Shown here piece after piece: positions 4,848 to 15,861 of a stretch of 64,000 nucleotides of DNA. The translations under genes and the position numbers were made by a program. This stretch comes from Candidatus Altimarinota bacterium (lineage in GTDB: Bacteria > Patescibacteriota > Gracilibacteria > BD1-5 > UBA6164): assembly GCA_025210615.1 (NCBI GenBank), contig JAOARJ010000015.1:1-64000 (forward strand), in the 5' to 3' direction. Positions within the stretch are counted from its first letter, which is position 1; every line of letters starts with the position of its first letter. The notes beneath the pieces are model-generated. The model was not told the DNA's origin, ran no database searches, and worked only from the letters and a program-made list of their open reading frames with translations.

Positions 4848-5795
4848 ATGAAGAAGTTTATATTATTTCTTTCAATATTATTAAGCTGAATTTATTTAAC
4901 TAATTTCATTAGTGCAGTCACTATAACTAAAACTTCTTGAGAAGTTTTAGATAATACTACTTGGGCTAGTATTTCTAGTTTAACTAATAAAATAGACGTT
5001 AGTTCTAGTGATATAAAATTAAATTGAAAATTATATGTTACAGGAAAAATATGTGATAATAGTTGAAAATGTTTGTGAGAAACAAAATTATGAACAGAAA
5101 ATAATCCTTGAGAATCTTGTAAAAAAATTTTAGAAGATGATAATACTTCTGTTGATTGAATGTATTGGATTGATCCAAATGGTTGAGATATCTCTGATAA
5201 ATTTGAATCTTATTGTGATATGACAACTGACTGAGGATGATGGACTTTAGTTTGATATTCAAACGCATTTGCTAATTCAATGGAACCATTATATCAAAAC
5301 GCTTGAACACGGAACCCAACTGTTAGAAATAATGCAGCAAGTAAAGACTCAAGAGATTTGGTAAAAAAATCTACTCATTTTTTATTAACTTACAAAAGCA
5401 ATATATTAAATCATACTTGAAATGCATCTACTTATGATTGAGTTTTAAAAGTAAAAGTACCAAATCCTGCTACAGTAGATTTTTGAAAAGACCAAACTAA
5501 TAAATGATTATGTAAAACCCTAACCAAAGATGTTGATTACTTTACTATAAAATGAATTAAATATCCTAATATTACTGATTCAAAGATGTATTTATATGAA
5601 AATGTTTTATGAACTGAGCGGATTGGATATAAACTTTATGGTATATCAAACTATAGTTCATGCGATAGTTGGAACTGAGGACAGGCATTTTTATTAGTTT
5701 TTGATAATGATAATAGTAATTATACAAGTTGACGGAAATGGACAACGAATTGAGACCGGAGAGTAGATGGTTCAGTATGATTTTGGTTAAAATAA
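4848..5795 (+). CDS. Secreted fibrinogen-like (FReD/COLFI-type) protein 1
   Basis: 315 residues. An N-terminal signal peptide (KKFILFLSILLSGIYLTN) is followed by a linker and one fibrinogen-like domain, with GMYWIDPNGG and YCDMTTDGGGWTLVGY near residues 104-140. Such domains often recognise glycans or act in adhesion. Cysteines at the expected places (GESCKKIL, ESYCDMTT) suggest disulfides. The first 100 residues are about 80% identical to the start of the two-domain paralogue at 38665-40158. A role in binding other cells is inferred. Confidence 0.8.
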
Positions 5796-7686: not shown

Positions 7687-10600
7687 ATGCAACAAAAAAA
7701 GGGAATTAGCAATAAAAATAAAAGTATGAAAAATATGATGAAGAAGACATTTAAGCAGATAATGCTGATGACAATAATGATGTTTATGTGAGTAAGCCTG
7801 GTTAATTGAGCTTGAAATTCTGCAGATAAATGAACTTTTAATGAATATAGATATAATATTAATGCAGAAGCAGTAAAATTAAGAAATGATTTTGATTTAA
7901 ATAAGCGTATGAATCCGGAGCTTATCAATAACCTTATTAAATTAACAGAAGAATCTTTTAAATACTTGCCAGATTGAGATAATTGAAAACCTTTATTAAC
8001 AAATCAAAGAAGAAAAGGAGATTTAGTTGCTAATTTAGGTAAATGATTAAAATATCCTACAGATGTTTGAACCTTTAATGAAATTATAAAAACTCTTGTT
8101 AATTATTTAGATAATGCTAGAATTGAAAAAGTATCTGGGCAAATTGTTGCTACGCCTAGTTCTTGAAATGCACCATTAAAAGTAACTTTAAGATGAGATG
8201 TAATTGATCCATATGGGGCGATTATTCCAAATAATAATTATGTGTGGTATATTAATGATACTTCAGGAATAAAAATATTATGAAGAAAAAGATCTTTAAA
8301 TTATACTTTTGATAAAGAAGGTAGATTCGATGTATTTTTGGCAGTATTATCTGATCATAAGAATAGTTTTTGAAATAGAGATGTACTTCCATTTTCTTCA
8401 AGATATAGTATAAATGTAAAAGAAAGATTTATTGATTTCAACATTAAAATAAATGGAAGAAGTTTATGAAATGATGATTATATTAAATTTACTCCAGAAG
8501 AAGCAAGAAGTGGTCTTAGAATAGATGCGACAGGTTCTTCTCCTGCTAAATGAAGTGATTTTTCTAGAACAGAATGGGATTTCTGAAACTGAACAAAAGA
8601 AAAAGAATATTCATGAGATCCTAGAATAGAAACGGTTTATTATAATAAAGAATGAACTTTTGATGTAGATTTAAAATTACAAACAAATGATAATCATGTA
8701 GCGACTAAAAAATTTACAATAGAAGTTAGAGAAACATTAGCTGAAATAAATGCTACTACTACAAGTTGATATATTTGAGATAAAGTAACTTTTTCAGCGA
8801 GATTAACTTCTTCTGAAGATGAAGAAAATTTCTCTTATTCTTGGCAAATAGTTGATGTAGATCAAGATAAAGTGATTTTTAAAACTAATGGAGCAGTATT
8901 TACTTATACTTTTGTTGATAAATGAAGATTTAATATATTATTAAATGTAGTAGATAATTATTGAGAAACAGATCAAGATAATCAAGTTATATTTATAAAT
9001 TCTCGCCCTCCTGTCGCTGATTTTGATACAAAAATTCCTAAAAGATCAGAGCCTAATAGAGTATTTTTAAATGGTACAAAGAGTTATGATCCTGATTTTT
9101 CAGATTTTGGTAAATTAGAATATAGATGGATTATTGATGGAAGTGAAGTTAGACTTGAAAATCCAAATAAGAATAATTCAACAGGTTATTATACTTTTGA
9201 TTCAGTGTGAGAACATAATGTAGGTCTTGAAGTATCTGACCCTGATGAAGTTGTTTGAACAAGAGTAGAATCAGTGAATATAACATCAGTATTAAGTGTA
9301 GACTTTAGCGCTTATCCTAGAGTAATTACTAAATGATGAACAGTTACTTTTATCGCTAATTCTCCAAATGCTAGATTCTTTGAATGGGATTTTGATGATG
9401 GAAGTACAAGAAAATGAGATGATAGGAGAGTAAATCATAAATTTGAATCAGCAGGGGTATATGAAGTAAAATTAACAGTAGTAGATAAAGATTGAGAAAG
9501 AAATAGTTTCACAAAAGAAGTTTATGTATGAACAGGGAATATTCCTTTTGCCGTAATAGATACTATGTATTCAAATTGAGAAGATATTTGAATTGAGTAT
9601 AACGCTTGTGATTGAAATCCTGCTTATATGGCTAATAGAGTACAAAATATTAGATTTTCTTGAGAAGAAAGTATAAACGCGGATTGATGAAGTAGTAACT
9701 TAGAATATTCTTGGAAAATAAGAGGAAGATATTATTCTAAAAGAGAAGTTAGTATTAAATTTACTGAATTAGGATGTTATCCTGTTAAATTAACTGTTAA
9801 AGATAAAACTTCTGGAAAGACAAATTCTTTGACTCGTTATGTAAAAATAGAAAATGAACTTCCAACATTTACTCAAATAGACATCACTCCACAAGATATG
9901 TCAAAAGATCCAGTTGTCTTAAATGTATCTCTTAGAAATGCAAAAGATCCAGATGGTGTAATTCAATCTTATTTATGGTATTATTATACAAATACTGATC
10001 CTGAACCACAAGGATTTAGAGTTACTAATGTACCTAGTACTTCTTTTGTAATGCCGAAAGTAACAAACGATTATTACTTTGCGGTTGTTATGACAGATAA
10101 TAATGAAGAAAAAGTTAATACTGAAGAAATTTCAGATGCTAGATATTTTATTACTCTTGAATGAGATAATTTAAATACTCCTTTAGTATCATTAAAAATA
10201 AACAATTCTTCTATTTCAATGTGAGATGACGTAATATTTAATGTTGTTGTAAAAAATGTTTTATGACAAGATATTACTAATAAATCACAATTTGAATGGG
10301 ATTTTGATGGAGATGGACTTTATGAACAAAAAACTTCAATACCTAATATTACTTATAATTTCAGAAAATCAGGAGAATTTCATCCAAAAGTAAAAGCGAC
10401 TTTTAAATGAATCAGTAATACAAAAAATGTTACTATTAATGTAACAAATAAATTAATTCCAGATTTTGAATATATTTCTATCTGAAAAAAAGTTATATTT
10501 ATCAATAAATCTATCTGAGAAATTGTTTCATCTATATTAAAATATGATGGAAAACAAGTTTCTTTCCCTGATAAAACATTAGTTCACGAATTTGAAGATA

Positions 10601-13515
10601 GTAAAAAATTACACAATGTTACATTAAAAATTCAAGAATGAACTAATGTAAAAGAAATTAAGAAAAGAGTAATAACAAATACTTCAAATTTAATTAAAGC
10701 AAGAAAACCATGATTAAATGTTTTCACTTATCCAGCTTATGATAGAGAAGTTAATATTGTAAATATAAAAGAAGATTGAGATAAATTTGTAGTTTATTTA
10801 TGAGAATCAAGAGGAGAACATAAATTCTATGCTGTTGATTATGATATTTATGAAGATACTGATTTAAATTGAGGAAAAGCTGATGATATTGATAATAAAT
10901 TAGACAGAAGTTTCTGAACAGGTGAACCTTTAGAAGTAAAATTAAATGATTTAAAAGAACAAACAATAAGAATTTTCTTGTTAAAAGATGATAAAAAAAC
11001 AGTAACTGAAACTTTAGATATAAAAATTATAAAAGATTATATTTTTGAAGTTGATGTTGATGAAGTTGAGTTTACAGGGCTTACTACTCAAGAAGAAGTA
11101 AAAATCGAAAAAATAAAAGATTATGTAAAAACTTTTGAACCTAAATATAGATTAGAAGCATCTAAATTTGTAGAAAAACTTCAAGCATCTTGGTTAGATG
11201 ATAGAGAAAAAACAGAAACTATTCTAGCTTTTGAGCAATATGTAGATAATATCACTGGATTAGATATAACTGAAAAAGATGATATTATTAATATGCTTGA
11301 ATCATTCTTAGTTAATGATGCTGAGGACAATACTGTTAAAAATCTTGCATTTAATGTAGTAAAAAACTTGATTCCTAGTGATATAGACGGTTATTCTAAT
11401 ATCGTGGATAAACTTGAAACTATTAAAAATCAAAAAGATGTAGAAAAAAATAGAGCGATTTGAAGTGAAATTTTGGCTTCTATTAAAGATAATGAAGATT
11501 TAACAGATGAAGATAAATTAACTATAAAGAGTCAATTAAAAGTATTAATTTATAATAATGATATTCCAGAATCTGAAAAACCAAAAGAAGAAGATACTGT
11601 AAAACCTGAAGATACAACTACTTCTGGAGATAAATGAGGATTCATCTGAATTATTATATCAGCTTTTAAATGGATTGTTATAATAGTTTGAATCTTTGTA
11701 TGAATATTCTTAGTTTGAATCATTGCTTTCTGGATTTGGTATAAAGTTGGTAATAAAGATAAAAATGTAAAATTTGCTGATTTTATTATAGAAAAAACAG
11801 GTTCTAAAAGAAATAAAAATAACCAAACTGATGTTTTTGATGATTTAGAAGAAGAATTAGTAGTAGATAAAAAAGAGGATAAAAAACAGGAGAAAAAAAT
11901 AGAGAAGAAAGAAGAAGTAAAACAAGATAAAAAACTAGAGGCTAAACCAGAAATAAAAGAAGAAAAACAAGAACAAGAAGAAAAAACAGAAGATAAATTA
12001 GATACAACAGAAGAGAATAAAGAAGAATCAGCTCCTATGGATAAAGCTGATTGAGAAATGCCTAGTTGGATGAGAGGTGCTGTTGAAAAAGTGGGTTCTT
12101 GAGTTCCTGTAACTGATACTAAAGAGGGTACAGAATTTAATGATGAGGTTCAAGATATTGGATTTAAACCTAAAACAGAAGAAGAAAAGATAGAAGAAAC
12201 TACTGAGCAAAAACAAGAAAATCTTCCATCTTGGTTAGATATAAATACTGATGAAGATACTTCTAAAGCTGAAAATAAAGAAGAAGAAAAATTAGAGGAA
12301 AAAGCGATAGTAGAAGATAAAGAAACAAAAGAAGAAGAAATCAAAGAAGAAAAAATAGAAGCTGAAGAAGCTAAAGCTGAAAAAGAAGCCATTTCAGAAG
12401 TAGAAAAAGAACAAAAAGAAGAAAAGAAAGTAGAAAAAAAAGAAATTAAAGCGGAAGATAAAAAACAAGATGATGATGTAGAAATTCCTAGTTGGTTAAA
12501 ATCTAGTTTATGAGAAGATGAAATCAAAGAGGAAATTAAAGAAGAATTATTAGATACTAAAGTTGACGAAAAAGTTGATAACACAGAAGACAAAAAAGAA
12601 GAAAATGATGATAAAAAAGAAGAAGAAAAAATTCCTAGTTGGTTAGAAAAGAGTAAAGAAGAAAAAGCTCCAGAAAAGAAAAAGCAGGAAGATAATTTAC
12701 CTTCTTGGTTAAAAGCGGATGAAGCAGAAGCTTCTGAATCTGAAAATAAAGAAGATAAAGAATCAGAAGATAAAATAGAAGAAAAAGTTGAAGAAACTTC
12801 AAGTAAGTTAAATAAAGAAGAAGAAAAAAAAGATGAAGAAGAGGTAGATACTAAAAAATCTTATGAAAATGATTCTTCTGAGGAAATTGAAATTCCTAGC
12901 TGGTTAAAGAGCGAAGAAAGAAAAGCAGAAGAAAAAGCAGAAACTGAAGCAAAAAAACAAGCTGAGGAAGCTACAGAGCAATTAGAAAAATCAGAAGAAG
13001 AAAATATTCCTTCTTGGCTAAAGAGTGAAGAAAATGAAGAAGATAAAAAATCATCTGAAGATGATGAAAAGATAGAAGAAATAATAGAAGATGACAATAC
13101 AGAGGATAATAATAAAGAAGAAGAAAAGACGCAGGAAGAATTGCCTTCTTGGTTGAAGTCTGATGAATTTAGTGAAGAAGAAAAAACTTCTGAAACTGAG
13201 ATTAAAGAAGATAAAGTTGAAGAAAAACAAGAAATAAAAGAAGATGAACCTAAAAAAGGAGAAAAGAAGAAAAATACAGTAGCTAAGAAAAAATCCCCAG
13301 CGAAAAAATCTTCTACTACAAAAGCTAAAAAAACTGAAGATAAATCGTCAAAAACAGATAAGAAAGAAACAAAAAAGAAATCTGATACGACAAAAAAATC
13401 TACAGTAAAAAAGACAACTACTAAAAAAACAACAGCCAAGAAAGTTGCTACAAAAAAAGCAACTACAACAAAGAAAACAACTAAGAAAAAAACAACAAAA
13501 AAAGATGAAAAATAG
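7687..13515 (+). CDS. Giant PKD-domain membrane protein with acidic PSWL repeats and H1-like tail
   Basis: 1942 residues in one open frame. A signal or anchor segment lies near residues 20-45. A long ectodomain of Ig-like and PKD-like modules follows, with clear WDF(D/G)DG cores near 565-600 (FEWDFDDGSTRKGDD) and 868-905 (FEWDFDGDGLYEQ). A helical segment precedes one transmembrane stretch near 1316-1352. After it comes about 500 residues rich in Glu and Lys with eight [MIL]PSW[LM] motifs (nt 12060, 12223, 12484, 12631, 12697, 12890, 13005, 13141). The last 85 residues are Lys/Thr/Ala-rich like the tail of histone H1. Ectodomain outside and tail inside is inferred from the single helix. The downstream ATG at 7726 is an alternative start. 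Function unknown. Confidence 0.85.
12060..13155 (+). repeat. Eight PSWL motifs spaced through an acidic coding region
   Basis: The protein motif [MIL]PSW[LM], usually followed by K or D, recurs eight times within a Glu/Lys-rich region. Spacing varies from about 22 to 90 residues, so this is a recurring short motif and not a strict tandem repeat. It could be a docking site for a partner; that is inference. Confidence 0.85.
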
Positions 13516-15306: not shown

Positions 15307-15861
15307 ATGGTGAAAAAAATATTGTTATTTTTAGTTTTCAGTAGTAGTTTATTTTTATGAAAAATAGTTTTTGCTGATGTTGAAATATATTCTTTAATGC
15401 CTAATACAAGCGATGATAAGAAGTTAGAATATATAGAAATTATAAATAATAATAGTGAAAAAATTGACCTATCGTGATATAAATTAGAGGATAAATCTTG
15501 AACTAATTTTGTGATAAAAAATCTAATTCTAGAATCTAAAAAAACTCATAAATTTTATTATAATACTACTAAAATTAGACTTAATAATTCTAAAGAAGTC
15601 GTAAAATTGTATGATGATAAAAATAAATTAATAGATAAAGTAGAATATTCTAGTAGCCAAAAAGATAAAAAAATAATTATAAAAAATCTAGAAAAAAAAG
15701 TCTTTGTAATAAAAAAAATTGAAGAAGATGATAGTATTAATGAGAATAATTTTTTTTGAGGAAATAAGGATGAAAAAGTAATTATTTTTACTTTATTTTT
15801 CTGCCTTTTAATATTTAGTTTAACTTATTTTTTTATTATAAAAAAGCTAGTCAGAGATTAA
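15307..15861 (+). CDS. Lamin-tail-domain (LTD) protein with C-terminal membrane anchor
   Basis: 184 residues. A signal peptide (KKILLFLVFSSSLFLGKIVF) precedes an LTD-like Ig fold, with YIEIINNNSEKIDLSGYKL and then a NNSKEVVKLYDDKNKLIDKV strand pair. A hydrophobic helix (IIFTLFFCLLIFSLTYFFII) near the C terminus likely anchors it. Bacterial LTD domains occur in secreted or surface proteins, often near nucleases or adhesins. Third gene of the lepB-truB run. Its end overlaps the convergent recO-like gene by 15 nt. Confidence 0.75.

Follow-up and report, generated by a model that had tools for sequence, protein, structure and literature searches.

What would a bacterium do with a protein that joins a large surface region to a tail of repeated tryptophan peptides? 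The question is raised by a gene at 7687-13515 in a 64,000-nucleotide stretch of DNA (the window; positions 1 to 64,000 of contig JAOARJ010000015.1, assembly GCA_025210615.1) from a Candidatus Altimarinota bacterium of the order BD1-5, class Gracilibacteria. Gracilibacteria are very small and are presumed to live on other cells, and to our knowledge almost nothing is known of how they sense and hold their hosts. We find that the gene product belongs to the core proteins of its order and is encoded in single copy, and we put at roughly 0.6 the probability that it is a single-pass envelope receptor or adhesin that uses a multivalent linear motif to couple contact at the surface to a partner in the cytosol.

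The single 1,942-residue frame that an earlier note on this DNA had described is open only with genetic code 25, in which TGA encodes Gly (56 such codons here); under table 11 there is no long frame at these positions. The PKD-like surface modules and lone membrane helix of that description were likewise borne out. Pfam PKD and PKD_4 matched five and four stretches of the protein (E 1e-37 and 1e-35), and the scores (127.8 bits for PF00801 and 121.5 bits for PF18911) lie far above the respective cut-offs of 23.5 and 27. Hydropathy analysis showed just two hydrophobic segments, an N-terminal signal (residues 25-43) and a strong transmembrane segment peaking at residues 1330-1348, a profile that fits a PKD surface protein with a signal sequence and an extracytoplasmic ectodomain. 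By the same method proteins of the window's family (f1) have a signal and one transmembrane helix, and most of those in f2, together with those in f3 and f136, have a signal, a two-helix hairpin and one further transmembrane helix; the tail is therefore predicted to be cytosolic in both forms. The earlier note had named a second membrane helix that would put the tail outside as evidence against its reading, and hydropathy showed none.

Structures were predicted for two parts of the protein. The N-terminal model (predicted local distance difference test, pLDDT, 88) consists of a four-helix bundle (pLDDT 84-96) followed by a string of PKD and immunoglobulin-like (Ig-like) domains, whereas the membrane-proximal model (mean pLDDT 76) shows an Ig-like sandwich and a domain of eight helices ahead of the membrane helix, with a short helix on the cytosolic side. 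Fold searches returned generic Ig-like matches only, and a profile search of the PDB found no relative. In a structural comparison the best row for the helical domain was a designed cage (Z 8.0 over 81 residues), the list being mostly Ig-like-domain matches, and a profile of the helical domain gave only weak matches at chance level outside the order. The acidic loop of the membrane-proximal Ig-like domain is likely metal-binding.

The architecture extends well beyond this genome. Using residues 1062-1400, around the membrane helix, as the query, we obtained a match in 57 of 60 related genomes, including all 44 of good quality, with one match per genome save for a single genome with two neighbouring matching pieces; the whole frame was fetched and read in most of the matching relatives. 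Mean column identity over the N-terminal 517 residues (residues 44-560) was 58% in an alignment of 21 proteins, and the membrane helix falls at residue 1,300-1,360 in almost all complete f1 proteins. The earlier suggestion to look for the same design in other Gracilibacteria was thus answered order-wide, with both the ectodomain and the position of the membrane helix kept. A single-protein search of genome contigs gave no match, whereas a search with an alignment (A2) did, and the relatives it found in a public collection carry the name Candidatus Gracilibacteria. Because the gene is single-copy throughout the order and its ectodomain is highly conserved, we regard the product as a conserved core protein rather than a variable adhesin. 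In-frame TGA codons in the f2 orthologue segments (G036, G038, G041, G043, G054 and others) range from zero in some to as many as ten elsewhere, and the use of TGA as Gly thus seems to vary within that family.

The tail beyond the membrane helix carries the repeated tryptophan motif. All eight tryptophans of its 480-residue low-complexity region lie in eight [ILVM]PSW[LM] motifs, and when the tail was shuffled even one such motif arose in only 1 of 20,000 trials. The motif count given earlier therefore stands, while the description of this region as acidic needs qualifying, as it is rich in Glu/Asp and Lys alike. Other motif-bearing proteins were sought by pattern searches, and [hydrophobic]P[SDAE]WL gave clustered matches in the genome of the window in this gene only. 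Relatives usually carry the form [IV]PDWLKG[SA], in 2-8 copies per tail. Across 54 tails, 253 of 307 tryptophans fall in [ILVMF]PxW[LMIV], the remainder being mostly in TPDWL or in ELW[DEQ][DN]GM directly ahead of a terminal motif. The motif also closes the protein in 42 of 49 complete tails of the order, frequent final residues being ELWDDGMKVPDWLKTDDDK in f1 and DELPDWLK in f2. When PDWL[KR] was searched in the 60 relatives, most among the matches listed fell in the orthologue; the few isolated ones outside it include one in an aminotransferase-like protein, and reversing the pattern as a control gave about zero. It is difficult to see why a single Trp peptide would be conserved, repeated and also placed at the very C terminus if nothing bound to it. 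Conserved throughout the order and in several sister families, these motifs are probably docking sites, as had been proposed from the window alone, and they are specific enough to serve as bait, for example as the peptides DVEIPSWLKSSL and GMKVPDWLKTDDDK.

This conservation also bears on whether the protein could be a structural wall or S-layer-like component, that is, a fibrous coat with the tail as a passive charged anchor. The highly conserved PKD rod would suit such a role, and a study of Vampirococcus tentatively attributes the fibrous surface of that organism to giant PKD-bearing membrane proteins (PMC8080830). A specific Trp motif, both repeated and terminal, is not expected to be kept in a passive anchor, however, and we consider a coat function unlikely.

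The motif resembles another peptide, the C terminus of FtsZ, which in this genome reads DLDVPAFLRNKN and which is bound by FtsA (PMC5832921). SepF and ZipA are further proteins that bind this FtsZ peptide. Both peptides share an acidic-hydrophobic-Pro-x-aromatic-Leu-basic pattern, an extreme C-terminal position and a flexible charged linker, and the tail could accordingly be read as a mimic of FtsZ. Scored against DLDVPAFLRNK, the motif sites ranked 1, 3, 5, 5, 19, 22, 44 and 206 among 18,084 11-mers from the 54 genes of the window, and the median site score of the relatives was reached by 0.15-0.2% of background 11-mers; ends such as ..PDELPDWLK and ..GPVPDWLKNA parallel the placement in FtsZ, and FtsA and FtsZ are encoded side by side in this genome. 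Against real P-x-aromatic peptides, however, the likeness stands only at the 4-7% level, and the comparison was chosen after the likeness had been noticed. Moreover, P[ATS]F[LMI]R is kept in all FtsZ tails read from the same genomes (as PAF, PTF or PSF) and P-D-W occurs in none of them, whereas the tail motif always has Trp, mostly has Asp at x, and is repeated within a membrane protein. The motif did not co-vary with the FtsZ tails of the same genomes. These differences, in a motif that is distinct and stable, suggest a different receptor, and mimicry of FtsZ appears improbable; the more elaborate idea that a host-contact rod with an FtsZ-tail-like array recruits divisome proteins (FtsA or SepF), coupling attachment to division, seems quite improbable. 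In one related genome (7% contaminated) we also saw a second, weaker FtsZ/tubulin match (G018:C23:5772-6227, 73.9 bits), lacking TGA and possibly a contaminant.

The C terminus of the window protein differs from that of its relatives. The earlier note had likened its last 85 residues, described as Lys/Thr/Ala, to histone H1; a basic end is indeed present, of 87 residues and of Lys/Thr rather than Lys/Ala character (38 K and 22 T), with the Lys-rich low-complexity composition of H1-like tails. Such an end might bind DNA and tether the surface protein to the nucleoid. It is predicted by hydropathy to be cytosolic, and its net charge peaks at +19 in 50 residues, a value reached or approached only by two relatives (L088, +19; L093, +17); the others span -1 to +12. 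The limitation of strong basic charge to these three proteins marks the histone-like end as a lineage trait. In most relatives a short basic spacer, with charge maxima of +1 to +12, leads to a terminal PDWLK, which is missing in the window protein; a basic end lacking the terminal motif recurs to a lesser degree in L038 and L078, and in L038, from the closest genus, the maximum is only +7. Since the conserved terminal element is PDWLK and not the basic stretch, and since a Lys/Thr low-complexity composition is not DNA-specific, the proposed link to DNA lacks support as a conserved function, though it may apply within this genus, and we judge a nucleoid tether very unlikely. The Lys/Thr end reads instead as an enlarged basic spacer, a local embellishment and not the core of the design. 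A frameshift in the poly-A-rich end that masked a terminal motif was considered and ruled out: there is no TGG (Trp codon) between the stop and the next gene, and a 14-bp terminator-like hairpin follows the stop, so this gene end is not a frameshift artefact. In its sequence the window protein is an outlier, with PDWL changed to PSWL, the terminal motif and a pilin hairpin lost, and the Lys-rich spacer as its terminus.

That hairpin came to light in sister families. A pattern search of 99 genomes of the class recovered related proteins of other families that combine PKD domains and a membrane helix with a segment of FEE[LI] type and have P[DE]WLK at the end of the tail. This end was present in all eleven f139 proteins read and likewise in f136 (giants of 2,068-2,098 residues), f146, f145, f144 and f141. 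The single gene is replaced by two adjacent ones in f139 and f144: the upstream gene encodes a type IV secretion system (T4SS) pilin segment (PF18895) and many PKD domains and aligns to window residues ~147-922, and the downstream gene encodes the Ig-like domain (f139, window residues ~1012-1089), membrane helix and tail. In f136 both halves and an N-terminal pilin-like hairpin lie within one protein, and f2 has the hairpin either fused or encoded directly upstream. PF18895 itself was matched in f139a and f144a; the two-helix hairpin of f2 and f136 was identified by hydropathy and, for f2, also by alignment with the f139a pilin segment. The window protein lacks the hairpin by both Pfam and hydropathy. 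Given these split and hairpin-bearing forms, the window protein is best described as a fused form without the hairpin. A gene split in related genomes had been named beforehand as evidence against the earlier reading; it occurs in f139 and f144, which counts in part against that reading, yet a fused form is found in f136.

The fused and split forms tie the family of the window protein to the T4SS-pilin-like proteins of Patescibacteria, for which we know of no established role, and the fusion to or adjacency of VirB2-like hairpins makes a link to a T4SS or pilin apparatus probable. On contig C6 of the genome to which the window belongs, two proteins (306 and 359 residues; L189:8566-10596 and L189:10640-13429, both minus strand) carry two and three T4SS_pilin stretches, respectively, and adjoin a 929-residue T4SS coupling-type ATPase. 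A 1,327-residue frame near T4SS pilins of this genome, considered as a second PKD giant, was rejected as it is a leucyl-tRNA synthetase (L188:6233-10216, minus strand, contig C5, P0002), in which serine-hydrolase and NUDIX domains are inserted flanking the editing domain.

We therefore favor a contact-dependent scaffold, in which a PKD/Ig rod, probably stiffened by metal, would project from the cell and contact host or neighbouring cells. The membrane helix would relay contact to the tail in the cytosol, a probably disordered region with several copies of [IV]P[DS]WL[KR] set apart by charged linker, and one kind of cytosolic partner may dock on these motifs. Clustering of rods outside would then concentrate the partner at the contact site, and the protein probably works with a T4SS- or pilin-type surface apparatus. 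Several points weigh against this proposal. The sequence comparisons did not identify a docking partner, and adhesion is suggested by domain type only. The f1 proteins are without the pilin hairpin, and no T4SS gene adjoins the window gene, the neighbours being SSB, signal peptidase and TruB. Finally, an A5 profile (Ig-like domain with a DxDxDG...NDIDN loop) detected the domain in 69 of the 99 class genomes, and relatives in f4, f5, f7, f10 and f11 have a related Ig-like domain in proteins that lack the tail, which shows that the two can occur apart. The interest of the family is that one core gene, kept in single copy across an entire order, would connect a rod outside the cell with a multivalent motif in the cytosol.

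Features of the PKD-tail gene and its 3' flank in the window
Feature	Residues	Position	Strand	Basis or remark
Whole gene	1942 aa	7687..13515	+	genetic code 25
Signal sequence	1-42	7687..7812	+	hydrophobic segment 25-43; signal-like start in relatives too
N-terminal four-helix bundle (GTFNEYRYxIT...)	51-143	7837..8115	+	predicted structure m7f87db6687f9; conserved in A4
String of PKD/Ig-like modules	147-990	8125..10656	+	Pfam, predicted structure, alignment
Ig-like domain with acidic loop DxDxDG...DDxDN	1008-1120	10708..11046	+	A5 profile, predicted structure
All-helical membrane-proximal domain, order-specific	1134-1289	11086..11553	+	
Single transmembrane helix	1319-1355	11641..11751	+	hydropathy, predicted structure
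Short conserved cytosolic helix FADFIIEKT (relatives GFQDFIIEKTSG)	1363-1371	11773..11799	+	
Acidic low-complexity tail, probably disordered	1376-1855	11812..13251	+	net charge -92
Docking-type motif 1, MPSWM		12058..12072	+	
Docking-type motif 2, LPSWL		12223..12237	+	
Docking-type motif 3, IPSWL		12484..12498	+	
Docking-type motif 4, IPSWL		12631..12645	+	
Docking-type motif 5, LPSWL		12697..12711	+	
Docking-type motif 6, IPSWL		12892..12906	+	
Docking-type motif 7, IPSWL		13006..13020	+	
Docking-type motif 8, LPSWL		13141..13155	+	
Lys/Thr-rich histone-H1-like end	1856-1942	13252..13512	+	
Terminator-like hairpin 3' of the stop codon		13527..13562	+	consensus match only

The position between SSB and signal peptidase/TruB is shared by many f1 genomes. 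Downstream of TruB in the window (15307-15861, plus strand) lies a gene for a small lamin-tail domain protein (LTD, 4e-15) with a hydrophobic stretch close to its C terminus, and a further gene (4848-5795, plus strand) has matches to fibrillar-collagen/fibrinogen C-terminal-like domains (COLFI, 6e-11), which are uncommon in bacteria. At the f2 loci (L062-L092) an ATP-binding cassette (ABC) solute-binding protein is encoded closely upstream of the orthologue, in some genomes with an M23 peptidase too, and a PKD-type protein of ~780 residues downstream.

Profile searches gave no match to a known family with a defined role, and nothing curated beyond PKD domains; our literature searches found neither a published description of the protein or motif nor relevant work on RbmA in Patescibacteria or on PamR. 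The likenesses to known systems are partial. The top Foldseek matches to the N-terminal PKD/Ig string were structures of the Aureispira grappling hook protein GhpA (9fls, 9flp and 9flw), but at TM-scores of 0.17-0.19 this is a generic Ig-string likeness only. The NCBIfam model NF058578 (CPR_pilus_PamR) matches the PKD stretch weakly (E 0.017 in the window protein, 8.5e-8 in f139b), but the window protein scores 14 bits, far under the 300-bit cut-off, and in the PKD part only. VirB2-like pilins are known from Patescibacteria (PMC12102498), and their two-helix hairpin (PF18895) is carried by, or adjoins, the f2, f136 and f139a/f144a proteins, whereas the window's family has lost it and consists in bulk of PKD rod and tail. 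Giant PKD-bearing membrane proteins have been described in Vampirococcus lugosii, a predatory relative, and in other bacteria of the candidate phyla radiation (PMC8080830); very large size, PKD domains and membrane location are common to both, but the part of that account considered here is a general list and mentions neither a conserved family present in single copy nor a motif in the tail or a fusion to a pilin. PKD giants and VirB2-like pilins are thus already known (PMC8080830, PMC12102498), and the combination of a PKD giant with a motif-bearing tail is a new variant.

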